Part shown: one piece after another, positions 3,153 to 48,100 of the stretch
Position numbering within the stretch: the first letter of the stretch is position 1
How the letters are laid out: the number at the start of each line of letters is the position of its first letter
Assembly: GCA_037893245.1 (NCBI GenBank)
Contig: JBAIAA010000524.1
Span: 124,001-188,000 of the forward strand
Direction of reading: 5' to 3'
Length of the DNA: 64,000 nt
Source: Crossaster papposus
Lineage: Eukaryota > Echinodermata > Asteroidea > Velatida > Solasteridae
The notes under the pieces: model-generated
What the model saw: only the letters and a program-made list of their open reading frames with translations
The model's database searches: none
What the model was told of the DNA's origin: nothing
Position numbers and translations under genes: made by a program

Positions 3153-3406
3153 CTGCAGGTAGGTTGGTACATTAGCCAATCAGAACACAGATGGTGTTGA
3201 CGTCATCGATGTTAGAGTTGTCTGGGACAACCCTAACCCTAACCCCTAAACCTAACCCCTAAACCTAACCCTAACACTAACACTAACCCTAAACCCTAAC
3301 CCTAACCCTAGTCAGATCCCAGACAACTCTAACATCATCGATGACGTCAACACCAACTGTGTTCTGATTGGCTAATAAATGTACACTATGTACCAACCTA
3401 CCTGCA
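3153..3406. mobile_element. Foldback element with telomere-like core, copy 2
   Basis: Same arms as 2179-2401 (CTGCAGGTAGGTTGGTACAT at left, CCAACCTACCTGCA at right) with CCAAT and TGACGTCA motifs. The core (3228-3310) reads CCCTAA/CCCCTAAA variants, so the telomeric strand is inverted relative to copy 1. Confidence 0.8.
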
Positions 3407-23123: not shown

Positions 23124-23739
23124 TCTCTAAGCCAGTCGCAAGAATCAGTCGCAGTCGCAAGAGGCAGTCACAGTCGCGGCCACAGGAGCCAGTCGCAGTC
23201 GGAGGAGCCAGTCGCAGTTGCAGGAGCCAAGCGCAGTCGCAGTCGCAGTCGCAAGAGCCAGTCGCAGTCGCAGGCACCAGATACAGGAGCCAGTCGCAGT
23301 CGCAGGAGCCAGTCGCTGTCGCGGGAGCCAGCCGCAGATGCAGTCGCAGGAACCACAGTCGCAGTCGCAAGAGCCAGCCGCAGTCGAAGGCACCAGTCGC
23401 AGTCAGAGGAGCCAGTCGCAAGAATCAGTCGCAGTCGCAAGAATCAGTCGCAGTCGCAAGAGGCAGTCACAGTCGCGGCCACAGGAGCCAGTCGCAGTCG
23501 GAGGAGCCAGTCGCAGTCGCAGGAGCCAGGCGCAGTCGCAGTCGCAGTCGCAAGAGCCAGTCGCAGTCGCAGGCACCAGATACAGGAGCCAGTCGCAGTC
23601 GCAGGAGCCAGTCGCTGTCGCGGGAGCCAGCCGCAGATGCAGTCGCAGGAACCACAGTCGCAGTCGCAAGAGCCAGCCGCAGTCGAAGGCACCAGTCGCA
23701 GTCAGAGCAGCCAGTCGCAGTCACAGTCGCAGTCAAGTT
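23124..23739 (+). repeat. GTCGCA-based minisatellite inside the LTR element
   Basis: Short units such as CAGTCGCAGGAGC repeat throughout, and a higher-order unit of about 299 bp occurs twice in tandem (about 23125-23423 and 23424-23722). Frames across it translate to Ser/Gln/Arg-rich or Cys/Asp/Leu-rich simple peptide. I do not regard these as genes, although an RS-like peptide of about 300 residues is formally open (22941-23849). Confidence 0.85.
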
Positions 23740-24240: not shown

Positions 24241-25631
24241 TTTCTATATCAACTTTGAAGAACACAATAAAATATTCCTGCATGTACCTAGAATTTCGCG
24301 TGGGGCGCACAAGCAAGAAGAAGATGAGCTGATTTCGAAAACACGCCGTGCTGCTGTCTTTCAATTTAAACGGATCACTTCGCAACCTTGGCCACAAATT
24401 GAATCTCTATAGTAAACAAGAAACTTAGAATCGTCAAGTTCGAGGAGAAAATAAAACAGTCTGTATTTGCGAAGCCATTCCGCGGGCTGTTTACCATCGG
24501 GAAAAAAGGATAGGCCCTATATCCCTCGAGGCTTCGTGCCTAGATCTATACTTCGGCTGCTGTGTGTTTGGTTGGTTGTTAGGGTGAAGGCACGCACGAG
24601 ATTGAGGGATGACCTGTTTTTAGTAGTTAAGAAATGCAAAGCGACGCCAAGGCGAAATAAAAAATGAGCAACGGCGAAGACGAAAACTTCAACGCAGACC
24701 AAAAATCACGAGAAAAAAAATATAGAATCCATCTTCACGGGGACATGTCTATGCGTGCCGACAAATAATTATTGGAACCTATACTACCGGTACATTAATG
24801 TATAAAAGAGTGAACAAAACCACTCTAAAAGAGGTCAGTCGTGTATGCCTATAGGTATGAAAGATTAGACGTTTCGCTAGTTTTTCCACTATGGCAAGGT
24901 TGGTGGTAACTTTAGATTTGTCCGATTAAATTGTTACATAATAACAGACACATTGAAAACGAAATCGAAATATGTTACACAAACCTTCAGTCTCCTGACA
25001 GAGCATACTGTCCGAAACGCTGATTTCCTCCGTTTTCTTTCAGAACCACAAAAACTCACCAAAACAATTTACCACAATGTGCTACCGCAATATCTTATTA
25101 ACCTTTTTTACCATGAAACAAAATTGTAATCTATTTTTTTGTTTCAATTTGTTTAGGCCGCGCTTTCGCCCGGCCAGGAAAAAAATGTTTGAGACTCATA
25201 AAATTGCCCATCTGCACGGAAATCTTTAGTAAAAGGCGAAAGATTTATACGAGATGCAGATAAGCCAGAGTTATTTCTGTAGCGATTGATCGGATTACAT
25301 ACTTTAGGAGATGCAACGTAACAGTCACAGTATGTTACAGTCGACGTCAAACTCCGATTTGTACAGGCATTTGCGCATGAGCAAAAAAGAAGCCACGCCC
25401 CGCTGATTTTAGGAGCTTAATGGGGTGTGGCCTGACGGGGCGTGACGTGACCCGGGATTGGAGATGATGAAGCTAAAAATTATCCCCGTATTTTGCCCCG
25501 TATTTCTGAGACATCCTTTTACATATATCCTTTGTGTTCCTTGTAACGATTACGCTTTTCAAGAAGTCGAAAACATCATCATCGTTAACAAAACTCGCAC
25601 ATACAAACCTGATCGTTTGGCTCATTAATTT
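24241..25631. other. Gene-free stretch
   Basis: It contains only a partial copy (24984-25035) of the 8620-8772 repeat. Otherwise nothing supportable. Confidence 0.5.
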
Positions 25632-30199: not shown

Positions 30200-33100
30200 C
30201 TGGCACAGGGAAGAGAAAAAAAACCATAAAGGTGGTCATAGCCATGATAGAAATAGTCACCCTGTACGTAGTCATGCCGTGGCCATCCTATGGTAGTTGA
30301 GAGTCAACGAGCAAGTCATCTGATTTAAAGTATCCAGGCCAGGGTGACGTTTACGAAGTCTACGTCATACACGAGTCTTTTGCTAGTCCTAACCGTCTTT
30401 CTGCCTGTCTCAACCATCTTTCTGCCGGTCCCTATCGGCTTTTTGCCAATCCCAACCGGCTTTTATACTGGTGCCAACTGGCATTTTACAGTCCCAACCA
30501 GCTTTCTGGCGGTTTCCCAACAGGCTTTCTATTGTTGCCAATCGGCATTTTCCAGTCCCAACCGGCTTTCTGCCGGTCGCAAGAGGCTTGGGACCAGCAA
30601 AAACTGGCATCTCGGCGCTGCATTCTACTTGCATCTGTGTGTCAACAATCTCGGCTGCGCTGGATCTTAGTTTACCTTCTGCTGCATCAGTAAAGAGTTC
30701 CGATTCCTTTTTTTTCTTCTTCTCCTTGGTCTTGGAGCTGGGAATGTCCTCAAAAATGTTGGTGCTGTCGCTGAACAGGTCTGAATCAGGCTTCTTGGAT
30801 TTGGTCTTTTTGGAGGCTGGCTTTTTGGTTGCAAAAAGGTCACCTTCATCTTTGTCGGGCTGAGCAAAATAAAAATTTCATTTCATTGCGAGTATCGAAT
30901 TCCAGTTCCAGCGCGTCGGCTCGGTGATGTTAAAATAATCCTGTCGCGAACTGGTTAAAAAGCTTTATTATCAACAGTTTATCAAGGTTACTAAAAAATA
31001 AAAATTCAGATTACAAACCTCCACTTTCTTGGTATCTTTCTTCTTTTTCGTCTTTACTGGGGAGGCCGTCGCAAACAGGTCATCGTCTTCGAGGACTGGG
31101 GCAGATGACGTTTTGGTTTCTGAAAGAAAAATGCGTTTGTGTTATAGCAGAACAACAAATTCAATTGTTGCAATTATCTGGTGATGATAGGCTGGGGTTA
31201 AATGTCACAGAGCTGCTCAGTGCAGAATTGTACACAGCAAAAAAGGTAATCACCACTACAAATCAATTAAAGAGTTACAAGTCAGGTTAAAGTAAAAGAA
31301 GATGAACATGAAGAAAGGAATGCCTTGGTCACTTTTCTTTGATTCGCCTGCCACTGTGACTGACTTAGACCCGACTACACCTCTGACTCTAACCATATCT
31401 CTTGTCTAAAGTCTCTCACACCTTTCTTTTTGGTTGTATCTGTTCCAAACAATTCGTCATCGGCCAGAGATGTCACTTTTGTCTTCCCCGACTTCTTCCC
31501 TTGTTTCTTGCTTTCGGGGGCTCCTCCGAAGAGATCCTCTCCAAAAGGATCCGACGGAGCCTTCTTCTCAGTCGCCTGGGGCTTGGAAACCAACAAATCC
31601 TTGTCAACGTCCAGCGGAGATGCGGTCTTTTCACTTATCTTGGGTGATGAGGCAAACAGATCCTTGTCATCATTCTCGAACATATCTGAGGTCTTGGCCT
31701 TTGGCTTTTCGTCATTCGACGGCGTTATCCCACTTGGCGTAAAATCCTTGGGACTACTAAAGTCAGTTACATCTGACGGTGGAATTTCTTTCTCTGTGAA
31801 AACAAGATGTTTTTATGATTATTAGAAAAAATTATATAAAGTCGGGTATGCTAAAACATGTGGAATAAGACTTCATACAACATCAAAGTAATGGGACTTC
31901 ATGCTTCGTAAAACATGCAAAGAAACATGACTTTACGTATGGCATTTTGCCTCGGTTACATATCTGACCTACATCATGCATTCCAAGCTTTGGTAACTAG
32001 GTTAATTGATCTGAGGCATGAGCAAAATAAACCCCACTGCTGCCAAGCTTTGTTAGATGACTGAAAAGAGCGCATTCAATTCTGAGTTATGGCAGGAAGT
32101 TGAAAGAGCAACTTGCAACTCACTCTTTCATACACAGTTGGGTAAAATATTGGACTGAAGGATTTCGTCAAATGTTAACTCTTTCTTTGCCCCTGGCCAG
32201 GAAAAAGATGCTTGCTCGTTTATTGCCGGGAATGGAAAGGATGTAGTATCCTGACGCCACTTCAGCGGTTGTGTTCAACAAAACTGATACCTTACCTTTG
32301 AGTTTACTGGACAAGACCGGAGGGAACGAGAGGTCGCTTGTCTCACGGAGGTCAGACAGTGGTGACTGCCTCCCAAGCAGTGGCTCGGGAGAGGCAAAAC
32401 TGCCACCGCGGGCTCCAGAGATGGCCGTGGTCGCCCCTTCTGTGCGCAGACGGCGTGAGGGGGCACGACGCTTGGTGGAGATCTTGGCACGTCCCTGTTC
32501 GTAATCGTTTTAGAAGGGTGATAGTTAAGAACAGCAATGTAAGTAAAGCGAGTCTACACAAATCCTCACCAGACTGTCGCAGTGTATTTTGAACGGTTTT
32601 TGGTGTTTGTTGTTGTTGTTGTTGTTGTTGTTGTTGATAAAGGCCTCACCTTGTTGAGGCTGCTGAGGGTCTGAAGTTTTGGCGGCTCATCGAACGACAC
32701 ACCCTCTGGTTCAACTTCCCTGGAGGGCGGGGTGGCCCCCGGCCTCAACGCTGTGGGGTCTATCACTATATTTGACTGCAATTAGAGAAGACATTGTAAA
32801 TCGGTGGTTACAATGCATATTCGAAATGTGCAAGCAATTGACTGAGGGATAAACAATATTTTGATTGAAGAGGGATGTTACAGTGGGAAAAATGCCGATG
32901 AGGAAGCATGCATGAGACGGGAATCTTGTGGTAAGTGAAAAATAAGCAGGCACCAAGTCCAGGATATCCAAGAACATGCAATAATGCAAGCAAGCATGTA
33001 ATAACAAGGATGCCATTAATAACTATTAAAGAGGCATGTATTAATACACGTTATAAAATATACATTTATTAACATTATATAAAGTCGACTCTCTTTAATA

Positions 33101-36100
33101 CAAACTCAGCCGGACCTAGAAAAAAAGTGTTTCTTATATCAGAATTTTGTATTAAGAAGAGTGCCAGTCCCATTCAATGTGCACATAAATAGTTGGGACC
33201 AAGGCTTTGCTATAACTATATATTTTGTATTAACAGTGTTAGTATTAACAAGGATCGACTAAATATACAGGAGATTTTTTTTTTTTTGGGGGGGGGGGGG
33301 GACAAAACAGCACTTATAAACTCAATAAAGCATTTGTTGTTGATCTATAATTGTTTTAATTAGAAGAAAGATGTAGTTTGACATCCTTTAAGTTTTTCTT
33401 GTTAGCCATTATACAATTCCTACAAGACAGTGTAAAAACTGACACATTGTTCCTATGAAAACTTAACATAGAAACAGTTGGTCCAAGCACCCCTACTTAC
33501 ACCACATTTAATACTTGTTGACTGCTGTGATAGGAAATATGTTTTTAACACTTGTGGGGTTAAAAGCATCATATATCCCACATCACAGCAGTCAACATTT
33601 GTTTTGATACATCGTGCCAATAAAATAAAACGATCGTAACAATAACTGAGTGCGAGGTAACCCTTGATAACTGCAGGCTTTCCTGCCGAACATGAGACCG
33701 AGCGCTGTATACATTGCCTGATCATTCCGGTTGTAGGCTCTACAAGTGCGCGGACATGTGGCCGCACTCGACCAATGAAAACACAGCATCCAAGCACACG
33801 ATATAACAAACATATTTATGATCTAGGGATGAAGTCGTTCACTTGCTAGTTTCTTTAGCAGCCTGCACAGTTTGTATCACCCACTGCATTGTGAAACAGC
33901 AGCAAAAAACAACAACTTTGGTCATGTGTAACGCATGACATATTCTAACACAAGACATCTAAACAATTCCCTCATACACCTTAACATGTTGCTATACTGA
34001 GACTGCAAACTTGTCAAAGCCTACAACCTGCCCAATCACTGTATCTGGTGTAGTATCCTATTTTCTGTTTTTACTCTCCTGAATAGAAATCTAAATACTT
34101 GATTTGATGCCATTTGGAAAGTGGAAACAGATCAAATTGTTTTTTGAAGCCTGGTCAATTATATTTTTTTCTACAGGCACAAAACAAAAACAGACGTGCT
34201 TGCATAAAGTAGAATGTACTCTTGTACTGTCCTTAACCCTCTAAAATCATAGCTCATGCAAGATCAAGGCTCAATGCATACATGTACATGCACAGAACAT
34301 TCTTCAAAAACTTGGGTAGTCAAACATCTAACCCTATTTTGAGACACAGCTTGTCAATAAAACAAAGTTAAAAAACACTCAAGTCCCACCCGAGTCATTT
34401 TTCTCTCATAATCTCTTGAAAGCACACTGAGTATATGTACTTTGTTTGTAAAATACATCAGCGGAAGGCGAAACTAAATATTGAGCTCGTCCACAACTTT
34501 TGAGTGAAGTTTATCCAGGGATTCAAGGGCAGCATTCACCGTTCCCATGCCAACTTTTTGCTAAACGTGCATCAACCACACCTGAAGTTTGCGGCCAGCA
34601 CTTTCATTTGAATTTTTGGACACTCTTGGCGATGAGGAAGCAGTGTTGTCTGCACCGCTTACAGCCGAGCCCAGCAACCGAGCTTCCTGGATTCTCTTGG
34701 CACTGCTCGGTTTGGGAAGTGTCTTTGGTGCAGAGGGGGCCATGGAGTGGCTGTCCTGGGGCAGAGAGGGTGACAGGATTTTGGAATTCCGGTTGACTTT
34801 AAGAGAGACCCTCTTTGAGGTCAACTTTTTCACCGAGGGTCTCTTACTAAGGTGGACGCCAGGGGACTTCTCTTGCTTCTCGCTTGGTTTCCGCCTCACC
34901 TTCGACCACGGGACTGCAGGAACGGGCTTACCGTGGTCTGCCTTGTTGACTATTTTGTAGCTAGTGAGAGTCTTGGGACTTGCCACTTTGGAGGCCGGAG
35001 TAGAGTGGGAGGCTATGAGTTTCTGGAAATCGGAAGATCCCCTGGAGGGTACCTTACGCAAGGTCCTTGTTTTCCTTGATACCTTGGAGAAATTGTTCTC
35101 AGTGCTTTCACCAGAATCCTGTGATCGATTCATCAGCTTGCTGTGTCTCAGGGTTCCGGGATTAACAATTTTGGATCCTGGCACTGAAGGGGCGTGCTTG
35201 TGTTTCTGAAAATCCTGAGCTACCTTGGATGGCACTTTTTTGAATTTCTTTGGCACTTTGGGGGCTTCATTTTCTGTATTGCCACAGTGAGAGTTGTCAT
35301 CAGTGTCCATTTTATATGAAGGCTCACTCGCCAGCTTGCTGCTGGTTTGTATTCCGGAGGAACAGCGTTTTAGTTTCTGGAATTCCCGGGATCCCCTCGA
35401 CATCTCTTTGCGTACAGTTTTAGGTCTCAGCGGCACTTTGGGAATTTCCCTCTCTTTACTTCCACTGCCCGAGTCTCTTTTTCCTCGTTTCTCAATGGAG
35501 TTTTGTGGAGAGAAGTTCACACGCTGAACTTTCTTGGAGGGCCTCCATGGAAGGGTAGACAATGTCGTCATTTCCGGGAAGGGTATACTTGAATGTTTTC
35601 GAATTGGTTTGTTCTGTTGGAAGTTCTGGTCAATATGCTCCAGCTTGGAAGTGTCATCGATTCCTGATACTGTATCCGTAAGACCACCTTTGGTGGGATG
35701 TCTTGGTCCATTAAGGGAATCATTTTGAACATTGTTTTTCATTGAAGCAGCAGCCCCGTCACTTTGGAAAATATCTGAGGGCATCTCTGTGGGAGAAAGA
35801 CAAAGGGGGTGCACCTTTCTATTCCTTGGACTCTTAGGAGGTACAAGTGGCGGTAGCTTTGTTGCTGGATGGCTGCGAGGATCTTGTCCTAATGACACAA
35901 TCCCAGTGTCTGCCTCTACACGTATCTTTTCCAGTTTCTTCATCAATTCAGACTGATTGTTGGGTTTTTCCTGAGTGTAGTTTGTATTTCCCATTCGCTC
36001 AGAACTTTTGATTGGTGGAAAGGGCTCGCTCTTTTTCTGGTGATCCTGCAAAGTCTCACTTCCATTTCTGTTAGATCTTGATGGTGAGGGAAGTGATTCT

Positions 36101-39100
36101 GCTTGCGCTCTTTTCCGTTCCAGCTTTGCCATGAGTTCAGATTGCTGAGTGGAGGGTTGATGAGGACCGCTTGGGTTCCTCCTATGCACAGGATTGTTCA
36201 CTGAAGGCAAACAGTCCTTCCTCGGCCTTTCAGTTGCAGATCCACTCGATTCAGCTTCTATCTTTTTCCTGGCCAGCTTTTGCATCAACTCAGATTGTTC
36301 ACTGGAAGGCTCCTGCGAATAGCTAGGGTTCCTATACCTTTCTTTTTGAATGCACCTCCCCTGTGACACGCATTGAGAGTCAGCAATCAGTACAGGTTTT
36401 GATTCAGCTTGTGACCTTTTGTTCTCTAGCTTTCTCATCAACTCCGTTTCTTCTCTACAAGCCGCCTGCCCATGACTCGGGTCTCTCCTTGGCTCAGAGG
36501 TTTGATTCTCTTGAGCTAAGGAAGAGACATGCTCACAGGAAGGTGCTCTCTCGATAGCTTCTCTTTTCCTAGCTAGCTTGGCCATAAGCTCCGACTCACC
36601 TGCAGATGCTGACTGGTTACCAAACTTGTAACTGTTCGGGGATTTGACTGGCGGGGAAAATCTTGATCTGCTGCTGTTGGAGTGAATCGAGGAGATGGAG
36701 GAGTGTCGGGAACTATCTGATTCAATCTCTGCTCTTTTTCTTTCCAACTTTGCCATCAGTTCTGATTGACCCGATGAAGGCTCCACTCGGGAAGGACTTT
36801 TACATGGACTTGAGTCAGCAGAGCCGTATTTTTGGAAGGGAATGCCAGAGAAGCCATTTCTGAGCAATGGTGATGTGATCTTCTGCTCACTTCTCTTTCT
36901 CTGGGAACTGGTGTACGCATCAGGTCTTGGTAGGGGTGATGGGGGGGTCTTTGTCCAAATCCTGGTACCGCTTATAGTGCAACTGGCTTGAAAAGAAACT
37001 GTGTCCGTACTTTGAATTCTGTTTTCGGTAAAAACTTCGGGAGATTTCCTAGAAGGGAGTTTCGGGCGTTGGTTGGTCAGTAAGAAAGGTTGAGTTTCCC
37101 TGGGTGGAAGAGGTGGAGGCTGAGATGGAGGGGAAGGGGGTGGAGCTTGAGGGATTGAAGAGTCCAAACACAAGGGGGTATCTGGTTCTGAATCTGTATC
37201 CCTCATGGCGTCGAAATCAGGAGAATACTGTAGAGGCAAGAAATGATCGTTTTCATGAACCACTGGTTTGAAAAGCTTCTGCGAGTTGCAGCTTGTGTCT
37301 GGGTACTGAAAATATGCAGTGTTTTGAATGTGTCGTTTTGGAGGAAGTTCAGGATCATCTTTCTGCCTGTGTTTCCTGCTTAGGTCAACTTTCCTTTCTG
37401 TATGAGAACAAGTCTGACTGTTTTCACTGAGTGCTTTCAATTTTAGGCGATTCTTTTTCTCCATGGACGCCTTTGACATAGACAATTCGATAGCTGCTTT
37501 CCGTTTCTCCATCTTCCGCAAAAGTTCTGAGTCCCCAGAGGGTGGTCGGACAGATCTGGAGCTGTTTCTGGAATGCTTTCTAAGCCTGGGACCTTCTCGT
37601 TGGGGGTCATGATTATCCAGGGTGTATTTGGATTCAACAGGACAGCTTTCCAATTCATCCAACGGATGTCGGATGTTGTCTTTTCTGTGCAATCCACATG
37701 TCATATTTTGTGACTTTGATTCAAACAACTGGGTTTTGGGGGATGGTCTATGTACAGATGCCACAGAGTGCACATCAGAGTCTTTGTTTAAGTTCGTTGG
37801 TCTGAGTGACGCACAGTGGGGTATGTCAGGTAATGGTTTGCGCTGCTGTCGTGAAGTTTCCTGAGACTTCCGTGAGAGACAGTTTGAGGCACCCTTGGTT
37901 TCTGATGATGATAGTGCCTTGACAATGCTCAAGTCACTCTGTGGGATGGCAGGTAATGGTTTAACCTTGAGGTGAGGTGTTGAGGATGTTGTGTCTCGAA
38001 AGGGAAGCTCAGTGTTGTGACTTGGAGTGGAAGAAGGAATAGGTGGAAGAGGTTTGGTAGAATGGTGGGTATCTATAGGTCGATTTGATGGGTGGGAATC
38101 ATCAGAGGGTGGAATTGGTGGCAGGGGCTTATTTGTAGCCAAAATTGGCAAGGAAGATTTATGAAAAGAAACAAAACTGGTTTGGGGAGAGGGTCTCAAC
38201 AGACAGTCAGCTTGATTCCTGTTTTCTTGACCAGGTGGGAACCTGACATGTCTTGGTTTGTTTCTGAATGCCGAATCAATATGTGGCTTTGGTGACTGGT
38301 TCCTAACACCATTTACACTTGACAAAAGGTTTTGATCGGTTCTTTGCTCATATGAGGAAAAGGCAAAGTCCTCTGCTGTTTCTCTACAGTGGTATGGGTC
38401 ACCAGATGGTATTGGTGGCAGCATCCTTCTACACAGTGGTAATGATGGCATTTGGAGTCCATTTGTTCCATTGGCCAGCTCTAAAATGGGCGAGTTTGGG
38501 TGAACTGGTCTCTCCTGGAAGTAGTCATCGTAAGAGGGAGGATCGCGTAAAGGGTGATGATTATGTCGTCTTGGCAACTCCGGAGGAGATTTTTCAGGAG
38601 GAGGATGGATATGTCTTCGACCTGGAAGTCTTGGAGAGGCATTATAGGGGAACCAAACAGGAGACCGAGGTGGCGAGGGGGTGGAACATGGAATGATCCT
38701 TGACTTGTTGATAGACTGCCTTGCAGACAATACTAGAAGGGGGCTCAAAGGAGGCTTATCAGGCTTGTGTGGGGGATGAAAGCAGTGGCCATTGATAGCT
38801 TCAATCCTCTGAGGTGGGTTAGGAGGGACATTTCTGGCTGACCTGGTGTGAACTGGTAGATCAGGTAGTACTGAGGTGCGCAAGTCATGTACCGATGCAG
38901 AGTCAGATGCTGAATCACAAGAAACAGGAACAAGGGGAGGTGGGGGAGCCCTTGGTGGGGGTGCTGAGGGTCGCTGAGGTGGAATTTGTGTTTGCATGGC
39001 ATCAGAATGACCTGCTTTGTTTGGGGTCATGGGAAGGCATTTAGGTTTGTCCATTTCTCTGTGAAACAGTCTTGGAGTCATTGACAGTGCCTTTGAGCCG

Positions 39101-42100
39101 ACAGTGAATAGGGCGTCACTGGGACTGAACTTCAAACGTGAGTGCTGCTTCTTCTTAATGCTGGTAGGATCAGATGGATGCCGGCTACGCATCTTGTCTG
39201 GGCTTGTTGGGCTGTTGTTGTTCTGATTGATTCTGTGCTGTTTGAGTACTTGTTCACAGTAATCACTGGGTGCTTTGGAGGCATTTTCTGCATTACCGCT
39301 CTGGTCGGGGACTCCTTTGTGTTTTCCCTTGGCGCGTTTTGCTTTCTTTCCAGCTCTGTGGTCAATTACTTTGAGACACTTTTTCACCGCCTTGGGCAGG
39401 ATTATTTCCAACTTACCATGGCCGGTGTGAGGAGGAGGTGGGGATATTGGTCGTAGTGTTGACCCAGGCTGATGGGGTGGAAATACATGGTGGAGAGGTG
39501 ACCGGGATCTTAAAGGAGGAGATGGGGGTATGTCTACTGGAATTAAGAGCCTAGAAGGGGGTGGCGACAGAGGCCTAGGAGGGTGTGGTGACAGAGGCCT
39601 AGGAGGGGGTGGAGCCAGATGCCGTGGAGGGAGCGGCGCCAGAGGCCGTGGAGGGGGTGGCAAAGGATAAGTGGGTGGCGAGAGAGGTCTACCAGGGGGA
39701 GAAAGAGGCCCGCTAGCAGGTGACAGGGGTCTAGTTGATGGGGACAATGGCCTGGTTGGAGGCGACAATGGTCTGGTGGGAGGTGACAAAGGTCTGATGG
39801 GAGGTGATAAAGATCGAGTAGCAGGTGATAATGGTCTTCCTGGGGGGGAATAGGGTCTATAAGTAGCTTTGGGCAAAAAATGCTTAAGTGGCGGTAAAAG
39901 GGGAGATCTAAGGTGTCTTGGCGGGGGTGTCTGAGTAACCGTGGCGAAAAATTCGGCTTTAGGGCGAGGGTGTGAGGAAGGGACTCTTCCCTTCGGCATC
40001 AGGTCTTGCACTTGAATGGTGGACGGCAGTAACTGGGTGTAGACAAAACAAAATGTGCACAACAAGAAAAAACCTAAACGTACAGGAATCCAACAAAGTG
40101 ATGACTTTGGGTTAAGCACACTCAAATTTATGGCACACTATAGGCATCTACAGAATCTTTTAAACGCATGCATGATGATCATTGTCACAGTATCAACAAG
40201 AAAACGGTGAAACAAATTCTATCGAAAGGTTTACTAAGAAATTAGGCATGCACTACAGAAACTACGATGAAAAAAGAAGAGTAGTTTGATAATTTGTTGA
40301 GCACTTGTGAGTGAGAAGAGTTACCTTTTCTGTCAAAAGTACAAGAAAGTGACAGATAATCCCATGAACCAAACTTTTAGTTTTTTTGTTGTAAGTTGAC
40401 AGGTTAGCTGTGGCAAGAAAGTTTGACATGAATGTACAAATAACGACGCTTTACTACTACATATGTACCACATGCAATAATAAATTGCTTAGAGTCATCA
40501 ACATACATGAATATAGATATGCATAAACATTTGTATTCAAGTCTGCTAAAGGATTTGTTTTGGACTTGGATGATTTTCTGCAACATTAGTAGGGCCAATT
40601 TCGTTTTTTTGGCATAATGTCAGAGACAATCTTTTTGTTGTCCTAAACACATTCATTAGCAAATTACAAGCATAATTCTTAAAACAGATTTAGGAAAAAT
40701 TTGAACCTATTACATTAAATTAATAGTTAATAAGGAAATAACTTGGCTTAAATGCCTGCAAAAAAAAAGCAAGAGTCAAACGTTTTGGTGATGAATAGTT
40801 ATTCGGCAAGGAAGAAATGTGCAGTGTGAAACCAGAAGGTTTAAGAATGATCAGAACAGAGACAACCTAAAATACACCCAACCAAAAAAAAAAAGTTCCT
40901 TTGATACATTTTGGCATAATTAATACACTACTGAGCACTTTTTGGTCAAATCTGAATGGCAATCCCAATTCTAGGGCTCCCAGGAAGAACAGTTCTTCGA
41001 TTACAAATTGGGCAACCCTGGTTATAAACAGAAAATAAAGAAATAAAGAAATAAGACTTTCTTTATAACTATCGATCCTAGAAATACAGCAAGAATCAAC
41101 AATTTTTCTTCTAACTGGAATGGTCCTTTACGAAACACACGACACCATTCATAATACCTGCTTCAAAACAGATGACCAAAAAAAAAATACCCAAAACAAC
41201 CATCTACTAATTGTGACCGTCCACAACGAAAGGGCTGTAAAGTAGGCATCTTGACGTTTTGAGATATTTAGAGAAATGAAATCTACAAGAAATAAGCTTT
41301 AAAATGATGTATTACAAAAAGAAAAATGTGGGAATTTATGGTCAGCTACAACAAGTAACACTGAATATGAAAATTCTTATTTTTTTATAGTTTTTTACAT
41401 ATTTTAACGGTCTTTTTCTCAAAATAAGATCTGGCGACTTTACAGCCCTTTTGTCGTGGATGGTCAAAATTGTGCACAGTGACACTGTACATTAATTAAT
41501 GAGCATTGTAAAAACGAGGGAAGAAAAACTACAAAAGTAATGCATAGTGTAATAAGAAATGTAAAAGCATGAGATTAACTAACAGTGATTGTTAACTATG
41601 GGTAAGTTAGAACAAAGGTCAACTATGTACATGTAGCATGAGTTAAAATGGCTGAGGATCAAATTTCGCAAACGCGACAGTCCATGTTCAACTTCTGCAC
41701 CCATTAGTGAACCAGGATCCCACAAAACCAAAACATGGCAACACGGCGCGGAAAACAAAGTTTGACCTAAATTTTGTGACTCATCTAGAAAGCAAGGAAA
41801 CTTTAATTTTATGACTCAACAAATAATTAAGGAAGCTTGCAGGGTGAGCAATACCAAAACAGTACGTCAATAAAATGAGCAATGAATTCAGGGATGTTAC
41901 ACCGAGAAGGGTCAAATCAAAGACGAGTTGTAATTAATCCTAACCCTCCTCAATCCTTCTCAATCCTCCAAACAGTTTACGAGGACTTTGGATTACCGAT
42001 AAAGGATGAATGGCCTTTCACTTTTTTGCGTGTACTGTACACGTGGGAAAAGTTGTCTCATAAATCTGAGACAACTCTTGTATCTGGTCAGAGTAATGAT

Positions 42101-45100
42101 TCAATTCACCATAATACGCTGCTGCACGTTTCGCGCATCACATCCATATGTTTCACGTGTGTAAAGTTGTCTAAGGGGCGTGGCTAACTCACAAACGACA
42201 ATAGGTAAATTGTGCCCTACGTTATATGCTTGATATCCTCCGCACTGCATGCTACTGAATGCCATCAGCACTGCCTCACCCAACCCATCACAGTGACTGT
42301 TAAATCAGAGGATTTTGAAGGAATTGAGGCAACAACCTCTCCACTGAACAAATTCAAGAAATAACACTTGATTTTGGAAGATTGAGGCTGAATCAAAATT
42401 TAAAAGCTGGCAATTATAAGTGGAGGATTTTGCAGGATTGAGGATGGTTCCTAGCCAAAAGAGTCTCAGGGTGTTAGGGTTCTAAGAAGGAGGAATCAAC
42501 GTAAATAAGATTAGGAAATGTTGCTAGCTGTGAAAAAAAATTACATCAGGACAAGGAAATATAGTTTCAAAAAAAAAGAAAAAAAAAGAGTCCAACCTGC
42601 AACATGCTAATTCTCTTTCCCCCGGCCTTAGCCAAGCCAGGGGGTTTGACTGAGCGGATGACTGAAGCTGGCTTATCAGAAGAAACTGCCGAGAACGGCT
42701 TGGGGCTGATATTCTCCGAAATGGAACTCGCACTTGGCGTACGGTTGCGCTGTTCGTGTAGAGAATTTGGAGGCAATCATACACACATGTATTTATGTTA
42801 TCACATGGACGAACACGTAAAAAAAGTAATCATCTGGAAAATATTGGCTTTTGAGGAAAATGCATCTTTTAACACCAAAAACCACAGGATATCTGGAAAA
42901 AAGTGGAATGTTAACAATTTCAGATATTGTTTTATGGAAACTTGATTTGACTGGCACTGATTAGAATTTGGACTTTAAACGTTTATACACTTGGCCTGAA
43001 TACAAAAATTAAAAAAATTCTGATTCTGAAATTTAATTTATCCTAACATTTCCACAAATAGCGAATTTCCTTATTCACAATTCGACTTAAATTAGGTACT
43101 GCCTTTAACACACATTGCGCGCCAAGTTGTAATCTTAGTACATGCACTGGTTCTGGTTGGTAAAATGTAACGTTAAAATTGTAAAAATAACCAAAACTAC
43201 TTTTGAACTCTTATTACTACCCATTGCTACAGTCATGCATTACCACACATACAGTTTCGCTACTTTCTCAATTTCCTATTTTAAGATTCTTTCCAGGAAC
43301 AACCATGAATGTACTTGTGTGTAACTTTCACATTAACCAGTTCGCGCCGGGATTATTTTAACAACGCCGAGCCGACGGGCGGGATTATTTTTAACGAAAC
43401 TCGATCCGAAGCGTGTTCAGGCTGATAGTCCCGGAAAGCACACCCACGCATTTTCGGCCTTGCGCGCTGCTGACATACATTTCCGAACTTGAACTTGGCG
43501 TGTTTATGCGTCATCCGTTTTGAATTTTGGGAAATTTTTGCGTTTATATACGTCATCCGGCGCGAACTGGTTAAAGAGTGCATCGCCTACCATAATAAGA
43601 ACAAAGGATGGCAGGGTTTTCAACGAAACAATTTTTTTTCTCCAAATACTAACAAACAAAAAATGTACAATTTTTTTTCAATAAAATTTCAATAAACAAA
43701 TCCTGAATTGACACCGTCATTCCGCATACAGAAATTGTTATTACATGTACATGTAAATACAGATTGTTCCATGAAACTTCAATTGTCAAGAACCAGGCAC
43801 TTTGACATCTATTTCCAAAGGGATGTATAAATTACAGCTGGGTCAGTCCGTAAATTAGCGGTCCAATTTTTGGTAGCCCTGTTACATCCGACATAAGATT
43901 TTGTTTTTTATTCAGCACATATTCTTTGATGCCTTCTATCCTACAGAGTGACTCAATAAAGCTGACTATATAAGTCAATTTCAGTAACTAGGTCAATTAC
44001 TAGGAAATTACTAGATCAGGTGTAACACTAGGAAAGGACATGATGTGATTTTGCATTCAAAGCTGACACGGCCAGTTGCAGTATGTGATTTCAACAAAAG
44101 ATTTCCAAAATCGCAAAAAATGTCCGCACTTTTGGAACCCATAATTAGGACTAACCCAGGTGTGAATTACCTAACAATGATACCTAAAATCAAACTGATC
44201 ATAACTAAACAAAAAAAGTGCAATTTGAATTCGGAAAAAGTCGATGAAAAAAATCAAATTTCAGGTCAGATTCAGGGGTCACAAAACACAATGTCTACAA
44301 CCAGATACTTGTTTCCTCCGAGCCTTGATCTTCCGGTTCTTCCAGGCCTACCTTATCCTGAGTCTTGGCTGGCTCTTCTTTCTCCTCCTCCTTCTTCTTG
44401 TCCTCCTTGGTGGACCCAGAGGAGATTTGTCTGGTGATTGCCGAGGGGTCAGCGCCGCTGAACATAGAGACGGCACCGGCCGGCATCTTGGGTTTGGTGG
44501 CGGCAGGGGGAGGCGACTGAAACAGAACAAGGGGGCATGATAGTTACAACTGATGACGATAAGGAAGGGAGCAAACCAACAATTAGAATATTCAATTGTT
44601 TACACAGAATTACTACGTTAAAAGAAATACTAAAATTTTGTCAGGCTGTCGTAGTGGTTCTTTCCTCGCCTTCCACCACTATGACCGGAGTTCGAATCTT
44701 GCCCGGGCCAATATGTGGATTGAGTTTTCAGTCCTCGTCTGTTTCCATGGGTTTCCCTTTGATATTCTTCTGGGGTTTTCCTTCCACCTTTAAAACTGTT
44801 ATTTCTTCTCATTGTCTTCTCTCTACAGGTTTCTTCAGGCATGCGAGCTACAGTGCCTAGAGCGCTTTTGAGAAATCATGATTTTATTATCACAAAGAAT
44901 TAGCTAGTTCCTTCCCGGGATTATTTTGACATTGATCTGGCCCAGGCGCAGGATTGCTTTTTATGAACCTTGGTCCGAGACGGTTTTAGGTCAACATCAT
45001 GGGTAGAACACCCCAATATTTCCGGCCACGCTTGCTCCGAGCCGGTCGCTGAGAGATATTTCTGGCCTTTGTCGAGTGACATGCGTATCCGTCATCCGTT

Positions 45101-48100
45101 TTGGAAAATGCCAAAATAAAGATAGCTCAGTTGGTAAGGCATTGGAGGGACAATCTGGAGGTTACAGGCTCCACCCACACCAGTTAACTTCTTTGTTTCT
45201 TTGTACTATAAATTATTAGAATGCGCCTTAAAGGTAGGATACACCATTGGTAATTGCTTGAATTATCATTAATGGGTAGATTTGGGGGGTTGTATTTCAT
45301 AGTAAATATCATTTAACTGACCTGTCCAAAGTTTTACAATCATGGATGCCGAGAAAAGCACGAAAAGCAGCATTTGTTTTCAACCGAAATTGGGCAGTTA
45401 TTCTTATGTTATCTTTGTTTTTTCACAATCGCCGTTCGGCGATCGTCAATTTTTTTTTATAAAATTATATTTTTCGGAATAATTACAGAATATCTAGCGC
45501 AATCATTTTGCTGGATGCCCAGAATCATTATTTACTTTCAAATGAGTAAAATATTTCTTAATAATAATCGGTAGTAAATATTTTCGAAATCTAAATGGTG
45601 TATACTACCTTTAAAAAGAATTATTTCTTTCCCTAAAGAAAATGGCTACCTTCATCACATCAAAGTTGATGACCTATGACCTTTAAAATGGATTGGCTAC
45701 CACTGACACATAAACAAAAACAAACACATTAACTTCAAAATGTTGTTTTCCACTTAGAAAGGGTCGCGTTTGGTCGTATTATCTTACCTTTTGTTCAAAG
45801 ACAGCTAGTTTATTTAGAAAACAATTAAAAACAAACAAATGGACAGAGCTACAGGCCATGTCCGAATTACTTGGCTAAGGCTTAAAATTACATATTGTAA
45901 GTCTACGGTAGCAGTTGCAGCCACTTCTCATAGACTTATAAAATCAAGCCACATCCACAAGTAAATCAGACAAAGCCACAGAATGATAGGATAAACAAGA
46001 GATACATGAACAAAACTTATAAGATATACCCCAATAACCTCAAGCAATGCATCTAGGACAACAAATTCTTACTGCGGAAAGTAAGCACAAAAATGTCTGC
46101 AGAAAGTAAGTGACTCACGTGATCCCCAAACAAGGGGTCGGTGTGGGCGGAGCCTTCAGTAGTATCGACACCCTCCTTGTTTTTGCCCGGTTTTTCTTCG
46201 ACCTCGGGCGTGGCCGGTTTCGCTTTGAACTCGGGCGCGGCCGATTTGGCTTTGACCTCAGGCGTGGCCGGTTTCGCTTTGACCTCGGGCGTGGCCGGTT
46301 TCGCCTTGACCTCGGGCGTGGCAGGCTTCTCCTCGACCTCAAGGGGCGGGGGTTTGGTCCTGCCGCCCCCTCCCCCAAACAGATCATCGTCCACATCGTC
46401 GTCAAACAGGTCCACCTTGGAGCTGGCCTTGGGCTTGGTCACCGACTCCGCCTTCTTAGCGGGCAGGGCCGCGGGCGTGGCCGGTTTGGATGTGGCCTTG
46501 CCAAAGAGATCGTCCTCGTCCTCGTCGCTGAAGAGGCTCTTGGAGGCACCAGAGGCCGAGCGCGGCTTATCGAGGTTTGAATCGGGCTGATGTTTTTAGT
46601 GGGCACAAGAGAAGTTTAATATCCCTATTCAAAAGGCTATGGTGAACCACAGACAGCTCGTTTGACAGCAACAACTGAAAAACAACTTCTCTCAACTCTA
46701 AGGCCGCATCCGAATCTCTTGTCTATGGCTATTGTCTAGGTGTTCGCCCATTACAAATACACGTGAGCAGGCTGACAATAGACGTAGCCGTAGCTCTAGA
46801 AGCCCGTTTCGGACACGGCCTACGATGCATGTCATGTTAAGTGAGCTTTTCATAAACTAGCTCCAAGTCCGGTTATACTGTTCAAAAAGTGAAAACTATC
46901 TTTCACAGAGATATCCTTTTTTTAATGACTTTGATTATCGAAATGGTTTCCGATTTTTGTCTAAGGAAAAGATAAATCTTTTTGATAACATGTACACAAA
47001 TATCCACCGCTACCAAAGTTCAATTAGATTTTTGATTATTCTTCATTAAAAAATTTTAAAGACAAGAGTTAGTTTATGACAAGCCCCTTAATTAATACAC
47101 TTTTCTACATTAAAAAGGGATTGCACCAGACTATTTGACATACCGGTATAATATTACTGTCTACTTAACTATCAACAAATTTACTCTTTACCTAAAAAAA
47201 ATTCCAGTTCATGGGAATTATCAACCATTCTCTCTTTCTGAATCCTGAAAACTTTATACCTTTCAGAAATCAGCTTTTTCAAAATGTTCAACGTTCGCAT
47301 CAAAAACTGGGTTTGTGCTCACAATATTTGAATGATATTGGACAATAATCGTGTCAAAATGGATCAAGAAAGAAAGACAGATAGTGAGAAAGTTTGTTTA
47401 GTTTGTTTCTGAGAAAAAAGAAGAAGAAGAATTTGTATATTCTTTCTTACCTTGGTTGCTGAGACTGGGCTGGTTGACCCAAACAAGTCAACAGGGGGCG
47501 CTTCCTCCTTGATGTTGAAGAGAACGTCTTCATCATCGAAGACACTCTTGCTTTTAGTTCGGTGCCTCGTCATCTGATCAAAACAAAACCAACAATGTCA
47601 GAAATGTGTTTTTAATCATTTCAATTCTTTAGGCTTGTAAACTCTGAACAAACTGTGGTTGGCATACTGAAGTTTGTTTAACACTAGCTCATGGGCCTGG
47701 TTGCATTTATGCCTGAGTCATAAGCCTAGGCCCATGATCAGCCGGTTTTAACACCAGCCAACCACATATGTAACCTAACAGCAAAATAAAATGAGCGTAT
47801 AAAAGTCAAAACAAACATTTTAACAGAAAAGTCATTTTTGAAATTTTAACAACTTCTTTTTTGAAAAAACGTAATCTATCATATCTCAAAGTTGTTTAAC
47901 TGAATCTTTTCGCGAAATATTTTTTCAACTCCGTTTAAAGTGTGCACAGATTAAAATTTTACTTCATTTTCTAAAACAAGAGGTCAAAACTCTGATAACT
48001 GTAAAAGGCTGTTTCGGGGGCTAGGAATAATATACTGTACCACAACACACACAACGTATCTAATTAAAGTTGACAACCTGTACTTTCAGGAAATACCATC

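Follow-up and report, generated by a model that had tools for sequence, protein, structure and literature searches.

A block of 5,451 nt on the minus strand of the 64-kb window from Crossaster papposus (the whole stretch of DNA analysed) is genuine, constrained coding sequence. Its membership in WASHC2 is likely, and the block most likely constitutes a giant protein-coding cassette exon of this gene, a reading to which we give somewhat better than even credence.

To identify the host gene, four exons were joined with the giant exon left out and compared with Pfam. This query matched the WASH-complex-subunit family CAP-ZIP_m (PF15255) at 6.6e-12 (46.4 bits, cut-off 28.2), and the host is therefore WASHC2/FAM21, as the sequence-only reading had proposed. 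The exons concerned are arranged as follows:

42597..42749, minus strand: WASHC2 exon preceding the giant exon; phase 0/0, terminal residues ISMLQ, donor weak at 4.8 bits
34582..40032, minus strand: giant coding exon candidate; 5,451 nt, 1,817 codons, phase 0/0, found once in its own genome
32650..32775, minus strand: WASHC2 exon following the giant exon; phase 0/0, first residues SNIVIDP
32296..32494, minus strand: next WASHC2 exon downstream; with the end of 32775-32650 it forms the CPI-like region LSSLNK/GRAKISTKRRA

The CPI-like region spans the 32650/32494 junction and resembles, by eye, a diverged form of the CPI motif, given as LxHxTxxRPK(6X)P in the excerpt of PMC4598739. Inspection by eye also shows many acidic LF motifs in the translated exons of the WASHC2 tail. 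It should be noted that the WASHC2 exons were chosen for residues resembling those of human FAM21, rather than by database comparison, from the list of a simple gene-chain script whose codon model was derived from WASHC2. Script exons 68996, 68871, 56238, 55214, 53084 and 48220 looked spurious and were discarded by eye, exon 63075-62982 (1/26, frame not found) was omitted from the GC3 comparison with WASHC2, and the list lacks at least three exons that probably belong to WASHC2 (near 65860, 65040 and 60095). With a codon model of this origin the script fragmented the giant exon, and its runs with free choice and with the giant exon disallowed were identical, so that it is uninformative on inclusion.

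The length of the block, its divisibility by 3 and the absence of any in-frame stop were all confirmed. The frame stays open between 40137 and the TAG codon (34563-34561), and the remaining two same-strand frames of the giant exon hold 54 and 114 stops. The second-longest open frame within the window has 321 codons; order-3 Markov sequences reached at most 334 codons when trained on the giant exon (40 runs of 64 kb) and 223 when trained on the whole window (20 runs). Among seven copies of a SELMxKLxxKR motif (21 pairs), silent sites are saturated (pS 0.84) whereas residues are kept (pN 0.28). Frame length, against the 334-codon control maximum, and codon-level constraint on the motif copies thus refute the reading as a random open frame or decayed sequence that makes no protein, which we consider next to impossible and in favour of which nothing was found. 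Rfam and tRNA searches gave nothing in the giant exon. The exon was found once in its own 1.02-Gb genome, where a secondary match covered residues 62-126 in the proline repeats (E 8.5e-4), the motif region gave a chance match (E 3.4) and 1,801 nt of its DNA matched only itself. A giant-exon pattern was fitted by 6 stretches in virus contigs and by 30 in bacterial and archaeal contigs, none of them confirmed.

The ends of the giant exon and the sites within it are:

40033..40080, minus strand: acceptor region, ...TTTTGTCTACACCCAG/TTACTG, 5.5 bits
39997..39999, minus strand: first in-frame ATG, 33 nt into the giant exon, poor context GACCTGATGC, possible start of a nested gene
35787..36599, minus strand: 813-nt exitron-like stretch, bounded by donor 36600 at 12.9 bits and acceptor 35786 at 12.7 bits, each in phase 1
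34756..34899, minus strand: second exitron-like stretch, in-frame, 144 nt; donor 34900 (11.5 bits) and acceptor 34755 (12.1 bits)
34574..34584, minus strand: donor, CAG/GTGTGGTT, 9.3 bits, phase 0, six codons 5' of the TAG
34561..34563, minus strand: in-frame TAG, the stop if the donor of the giant exon is unused

Both splice sites had been called good, a description that fits the donor (rank 28 of 3,750 same-strand GTs, its strength reached by 6 of 22 WASHC2 donors) and not the acceptor, which is middling (rank 218 of 3,626 AGs) and is matched or bettered by 15 of 21 WASHC2 acceptors, or 15 of 22 when acceptor 32494 (0.8 bits) is counted; the scoring matrices used also guided the choice of most WASHC2 exon ends. 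Donors at least this strong occur 1.32 times per 5,451 nt over all phases in codon-order shuffles and at 0.00031 per nt outside the listed exons, and the chance of such a phase-0 donor within the last 20 codons is about 0.5-0.6%. Phase 0 at both ends, and placement at the phase-0 junction between SMLQ and SNIV, were borne out on exons 42749-42597 and 32775-32650; this junction had been said to reproduce conserved vertebrate sequence. The source is an echinoderm and not a vertebrate, with a mitochondrion that points to a sea star or brittle star. The suggestion that the terminal GRKLQ imitates the SMLQ end of the preceding exon holds for the shared LQ only, the Q being dictated by the phase-0 CAG/GT donor. 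Of the start and stop suggested for an independent transcript, the TAG is in place, but there is no ATG at 40125. The internal sites outscore the giant exon's own and include a stronger phase-0 donor (34900); donor 36600 is the best and acceptor 35786 the second-best on the strand.

Regarding the flanking introns, no further plausible coding exon was found in either of them, and exon 32775 of WASHC2 is therefore the only apparent downstream partner. Both flanks carry the TGCATG hexamer (UGCAUG, RBFOX):

40033..40532, minus strand: upstream intron flank; three TGCATG, at 40476, 40252 and 40172
34082..34581, minus strand: downstream intron flank; two TGCATG, at 34292 and 34260

The two 500-nt flanks thus hold 5 copies vs 0.4 expected, which places TGCATG first of 4,096 hexamers, although the motif was first spotted by eye and the post hoc test gives about 0.26 after correction for 4,096 hexamers. 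Any contiguous 1,000 nt of an 84-kb stretch holds at most 3, and pairs of TGCATG also occur in neighbouring WASHC2 introns. RBFOX-like RRM exons were found in the same genome; a search with the RBFOX family model PF12414 came back empty but is uninformative, all its controls being equally silent. A 28-codon open tail past the TAG (QKVGMGTVNAALESLDKLHSKVVDELNI, same frame) was considered as a C-terminus of the block's own and rejected: it is protein-like by eye, but two coding scores do not support this (values as high are reached by 25% and 5.6% of open intron windows), and the acceptor needed to splice an internal donor to it is, at 0.3 bits, very weak.

The encoded segment has a net charge of +129, is apparently disordered and is rich in SH3-ligand patterns (class I, 15 vs 6.6 expected; class II, 16 vs 6.5; block shuffles). 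Its recurrent elements are:

39549..39837, minus strand: RPLSPP-type proline-rich tandem repeats (sequence repeats)
37819..38130, minus strand: four KPLPxIP motifs of SH3-ligand type, codons 635, 660, 691 and 732
35905..37530, minus strand: seven SELMxKLxxKR motifs, codons 835, 1090, 1147, 1196, 1247, 1298 and 1361

A single-sequence model predicted helices at all six of the SELMxKLxxKR motifs modelled. Compared with known family profiles as possible WH2/GAB-type actin-binding helices, the copies gave no reported WH2 match; three of the seven each had one sub-cut-off family match (CAMSAP_CC1 0.0056, CCD48 0.037, RBM39linker 0.089), and a PDB profile search reached a best E of 0.26. Searches of the giant exon against Pfam and against PDB sequences returned nothing up to E 1. 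PxxxPR motifs of the CIN85/CD2AP type are not enriched in the segment (5 vs 4.5, P 0.49), the CPI motif was looked for in the exon and not found, and LF(a)-type motifs of WASHC2 number zero there, with one match to [DE][LI]F. At the nucleotide level, GC3 is 0.44 vs 0.60 in WASHC2 exons (Fisher 3e-18), and adenosine makes up 30.2% overall and 32.3% of the 3' 3,019 nt. Purine-rich enhancer hexamers occur at 6.42 per kb vs 29.7 per kb in WASHC2 exons, and are not enriched over codon shuffles (mean 6.06 per kb, P 0.39).

The main rival, to which we attach appreciable though clearly lower probability, is a separate same-strand gene nested in the WASHC2 intron, with a non-coding 5' exon, acceptor 40032, the ATG at 39999, a single giant coding exon and the stop at 34561. 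This possibility is favoured by the GC3 gap, the absent LF(a)-type motifs and the ATG, which lies 33 nt past the acceptor; moreover, composition differs from WASHC2, no additional coding exon is needed, an AATAAA lies at 33070, and same-strand nesting is known (excerpt of PMC10901741). Yet the start context is poor, the next in-frame ATG is at 39192, and coincidence (about 0.5%) would have to account for the strong phase-0 donor that lies only six codons ahead of the stop. In addition, CpG o/e is low (0.30-0.50 in 500-nt windows starting 40000-40750), with no sign of an unmethylated promoter, a weak argument since the WASHC2 start-codon region is low as well (0.48-0.65).

The donor evidence would serve equally an alternative first coding exon of WASHC2, in which a promoter upstream of the ATG at 39999 would yield a short isoform that keeps the giant segment, the CPI-like region and the C-terminal LF motifs but lacks the N-terminal head for WASH assembly. 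We regard this as distinctly improbable: the start context is poor, no evidence of a promoter was seen, and the 40032 acceptor, in frame with that ATG, goes unexplained unless there is a 5' non-coding exon. Less probable still is an alternative last exon, spliced 42597/40032 and ending at the TAG with intronic polyadenylation, which would give WASHC2 without the CPI-like region and C-terminal tail. Besides the AATAAA, ATTAAA at 33512, 33360 and 33099 would suit it, but the strong donor adjoining the TAG would be fortuitous, and the open tail beyond is not clearly coding.

Taken together, the coding sequence, the matching phases, the in-phase donor near the stop, flanks without another coding exon, the TGCATG and SH3-ligand excesses and the helices argue for a cassette exon of WASHC2, and GC3, charge and composition, LF(a) absence, the ATG, the middling acceptor and the stronger internal sites argue against it. 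That the giant exon is spliced to WASHC2, that this is regulated, and that the segment binds SH3 domains or has a link to actin is what we infer. When the cassette exon is skipped, 42749-42597 would join 32775-32650 and give ordinary WASHC2; when included, it would add 1,817 residues to the flexible tail and more than double the protein. The long, apparently disordered segment would, as had been proposed, precede the CPI-like, capping-protein-binding region, by about 36 residues, and the frame fits inclusion and skipping alike. The insert might serve as a spacer and, being multivalent, as a docking strand, in which SH3-ligand motifs that recruit SH3 adaptors would be combined with seven short basic helices in an array. 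The UGCAUG copies on both sides suggest RBFOX control of inclusion, and splicing out the 813-nt stretch would remove SELMxKLxxKR motifs 3-7. As a speculation of low probability, RBFOX-controlled splicing might re-equip the WASH complex with a basic strand of 1,817 residues that bears SH3-ligand motifs and seven helices of actin type before the capping-protein site, the in-frame 813-nt exitron setting the helices to seven or two, as a two-level switch of endosomal actin in neurons or muscle. If the extension of WASHC2 is switchable, two isoforms one exon apart beside that site would provide a test of tail length and valency in endosomal actin control.

PALI1, from the LCOR locus, owes its difference to a giant alternative exon. 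The likeness is that different transcripts of a single locus encode distinct proteins (excerpt of PMC8319299); the difference is that LCOR is a vertebrate chromatin gene. Giant cassette exons that code for protein form a recognised class, mostly in cytoskeletal genes (ANK3, 7.8 kb, ANK2, MAP2, MAP4, MAPT, NIN, MPRIP, NASP, CLIP1; excerpt of PMC10901741), so the kind is not new; they share with the present exon a kilobase-long in-frame coding exon within a multi-exon scaffold gene, and WASHC2 is not among the hosts named in that excerpt. SAFB-class giant exons there exceed 33% adenosine, MAPT being the exception, a level above the 30.2% found here, where purine-rich enhancers are not enriched either. 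Tissue-specific inclusion is a further mark of that class, and for it the flanking TGCATG copies are no more than suggestive here. Ultra-long exons whose cryptic internal splice sites are repressed by RBMX (excerpt of PMC11446547) resemble it as long coding exons with strong internal splice sites, and exitrons (excerpt of PMC4484396) resemble its two internal donor/acceptor pairs, with lengths divisible by 3 in coding sequence, which here are predicted. WASHC2/FAM21 of other animals shares the CAP-ZIP_m region and acidic LF motifs with the host gene; a giant exon in it is not described among the literature matches listed, among which a giant cassette exon in WASHC2 would be new. If this extension is switchable, inclusion of a giant exon would rebuild the WASH endosomal machine as it does the scaffolds ankyrin, MAP2 and tau.

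A stretch of 1,817 codons on the minus strand (window 34582-40032) is open throughout, within a whole frame running from 40137 to 34561. This length is far beyond chance, and the giant stop-free coding exon candidate of the sequence-only reading is real. The composition of the encoded protein (P 14.7%, S 13.9%, K 8.0%, R 7.9%, net charge +129) suggests a basic and probably disordered chain; in the available text of PMC9825244, disorder is generally commoner in the products of longer internal exons. The motifs along the exon are as follows.

Window 34582-40032, minus strand, giant exon: RPLSPP repeats, four KPLPxIP motifs and seven SELMxKLxxKR motifs

Compared with block shuffles, putative SH3-ligand patterns were in excess (class I, 15 versus 6.6; class II, 16 versus 6.5) and the PxxxPR pattern was not enriched. 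The exon held no LF(a)-like motif and a single match to [DE][LI]F.

Between the seven SELMxKLxxKR copies (21 pairs), pS was 0.84 and pN 0.28, the residues being alike and the codons not; selection of the copies by protein similarity biases pN towards low values. The saturated pS shows that the motifs did not arise by recent duplication of the DNA. For 323 residues, a single-sequence AlphaFold2 model (mean pLDDT 64, pTM 0.25) predicted helices at all six motifs that it contained, as well as one further short helix and a strand pair; elsewhere confidence was mostly low. Pfam searches with the seven copies returned no known family (three copies each gave one match short of the cut-off, to three different families, the best being CAMSAP_CC1 at 0.0056), and an actin role of the array would therefore be guesswork prompted by its setting in WASHC2.

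The minus-strand exon chain from ~72621 (8.6 kb outside the window) to 30045 is one that we take to be WASHC2/FAM21 by its likeness to human FAM21. Its translations contain WEKPLS..., LQEF...ANTQFIEN, PLPYLIG, FADEL and many DDLF-type motifs, and end SIFDDPLNAMGK. When the giant exon was omitted from the join, the four exons around it matched Pfam CAP-ZIP_m (6.6e-12); the N-terminal piece gave no significant Pfam match, and a PDB search with two WASHC2 pieces gave none. In the available text of PMC8047104, FAM21 is described as using its CPI motif to recruit capping protein, with retromer bound along its tail. A 27-bp minisatellite (5.7 copies, window 46187-46340) lies in a WASHC2 exon and encodes KPATPEVKA-type repeats, and a 21/64-bp minisatellite (30377-30589) overlaps the open frame holding the second-last listed exon. 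A U5 spliceosomal RNA gene (RF00020, 87.8 bits; 25155-25273, minus strand) was detected ~5 kb past the end of WASHC2.

The best argument for the giant exon belonging to WASHC2 is its donor at 34582, which scores 9.3 bits, is in phase 0 and lies six codons ahead of the stop. Donors of at least 9.3 bits make up 6 of the 22 in WASHC2, and the chance of a phase-0 donor of that strength in the last 20 codons is ~0.5-0.6%, as calculated from donor rates in codon-order shuffles and outside the listed exons. Both splice sites had been called good; this holds for the donor, whereas the acceptor (40032) is unremarkable: among 21 WASHC2 acceptors, 15 score equally high. No second coding exon was found by script in either flanking intron, and 32775, where the following WASHC2 exon starts, is therefore the natural downstream partner.

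Three features count against membership: GC3 (0.44 over the 1,817 codons versus 0.60 over 1,243 WASHC2 codons from 25 of 26 listed exons), the lack of LF(a)-like motifs, and an in-frame ATG 11 codons into the exon. Silent-site GC in the last 150 codons is 0.59, which is WASHC2-like. All three would be explained by a gene nested on the same strand and having a single coding exon, but its donor at 34582 would have to be accidental and its start an ATG in poor context, and we consider such a gene rather unlikely. That the giant exon serves as an alternative first exon of WASHC2 appears improbable, and as an alternative last exon very improbable. On balance, we lean slightly towards a cassette (or constitutive) exon of WASHC2. 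Of the switchable WASH extension proposed earlier, the giant coding exon candidate is indeed striking, and the mechanism is a plausible proposal. The strand's best acceptor in the window (40755, minus strand, 13.9 bits) lies 723 nt ahead of the giant exon, and the open frame across it (40723-40866) ends 11 codons past it. Directly after the TAG, a 28-codon tail (34474-34560, minus strand) is open in the same frame; it is protein-like by eye and not clearly coding.

The two 500-nt flanks of the giant exon contain five copies of TGCATG, an RBFOX-type site, versus 0.4 expected, which places it top of 4,096 hexamers (Poisson 6e-5, ~0.26 when corrected for all hexamers). This enrichment is only suggestive of WASHC2 membership, because the motif was noticed by eye before counting and the WASHC2 introns on either side also hold pairs (32912, 32980, 31919, 31980, 43146 and 43239). 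RBFOX-like RRM exons are present on the same contig. Across an 84-kb stretch, 11 of 36 TGCATG copies fall within the 11.3 kb around the giant exon (31919-43239, minus strand).

On this strand no donor scores higher than the one at 36600, and only one acceptor scores higher than that at 35786; both sites lie within the giant exon, mutually in frame. Internal donor/acceptor pairs, all with very strong sites, bound two exitron-like stretches:

Window 35787-36599, minus strand: exitron-like stretch 1, with the pair 36600/35786, bracketing SELMxKLxxKR motifs 3-7
Window 34756-34899, minus strand: exitron-like stretch 2, with the in-frame pair 34900/34755, removal of which would cost 48 codons

An in-frame pair as strong as 36600/35786 arose in 0 of 300 codon-order shuffles, with thresholds chosen post hoc once the sites had been seen. 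Such shuffles led us to expect 1.32 donors of at least 9.3 bits and 2.96 acceptors of at least 10 bits inside the exon, which has four and five, respectively. These internal sites may mark exitrons, or else be cryptic and need silencing.

The assembly comprises 1.02 Gb in 1,841 contigs, the window being C524:124001-188000. On the mitochondrial contig (C1841), cox1 opens ATG CAA CTA AGA CGA TGA CTA TTT TCA ACT AAA CAC AAG GAT; set by eye against the consensus MQLSRWLFSTNHKD, AAA reads as Asn, AAG as Lys and AGA as Ser. An apparent nad4L and then cox2 follow cox1, with opposite-strand genes ahead of it. Set beside the gene orders of echinoderm groups, this suggests a sea star or a brittle star. 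Contig C8 carries cyoA-, cyoB- and cyoC-like open frames in a row (bacterial oxidase genes, labelled by eye), so that the animal assembly seems to include a bacterial genome, from a symbiont or contaminant, one contig of which reaches at least 5.2 Mb. The window further contains a CAGTCG-rich satellite (23133-23734; two near-identical copies of a 299-bp unit), with a 270-bp stretch repeated on either side of it (22237 and 23972; 99% identity), and interstitial telomere-like TTAGGG arrays (2278-2319 and 3229-3310).

No giant exon in WASHC2 was reported among the papers listed by our literature searches. A 2024 study defined giant protein-coding cassette exons as a class; in the available text of PMC10901741 the named hosts are mostly cytoskeletal and WASHC2 is not among them. 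If spliced as proposed, the giant exon would work like the members of this class, although it is without two of the compositional traits given for them there. In ultra-long human exons, cryptic internal sites are reported to be held silent (PMC11446547, available text), and the giant exon likewise contains strong internal sites.
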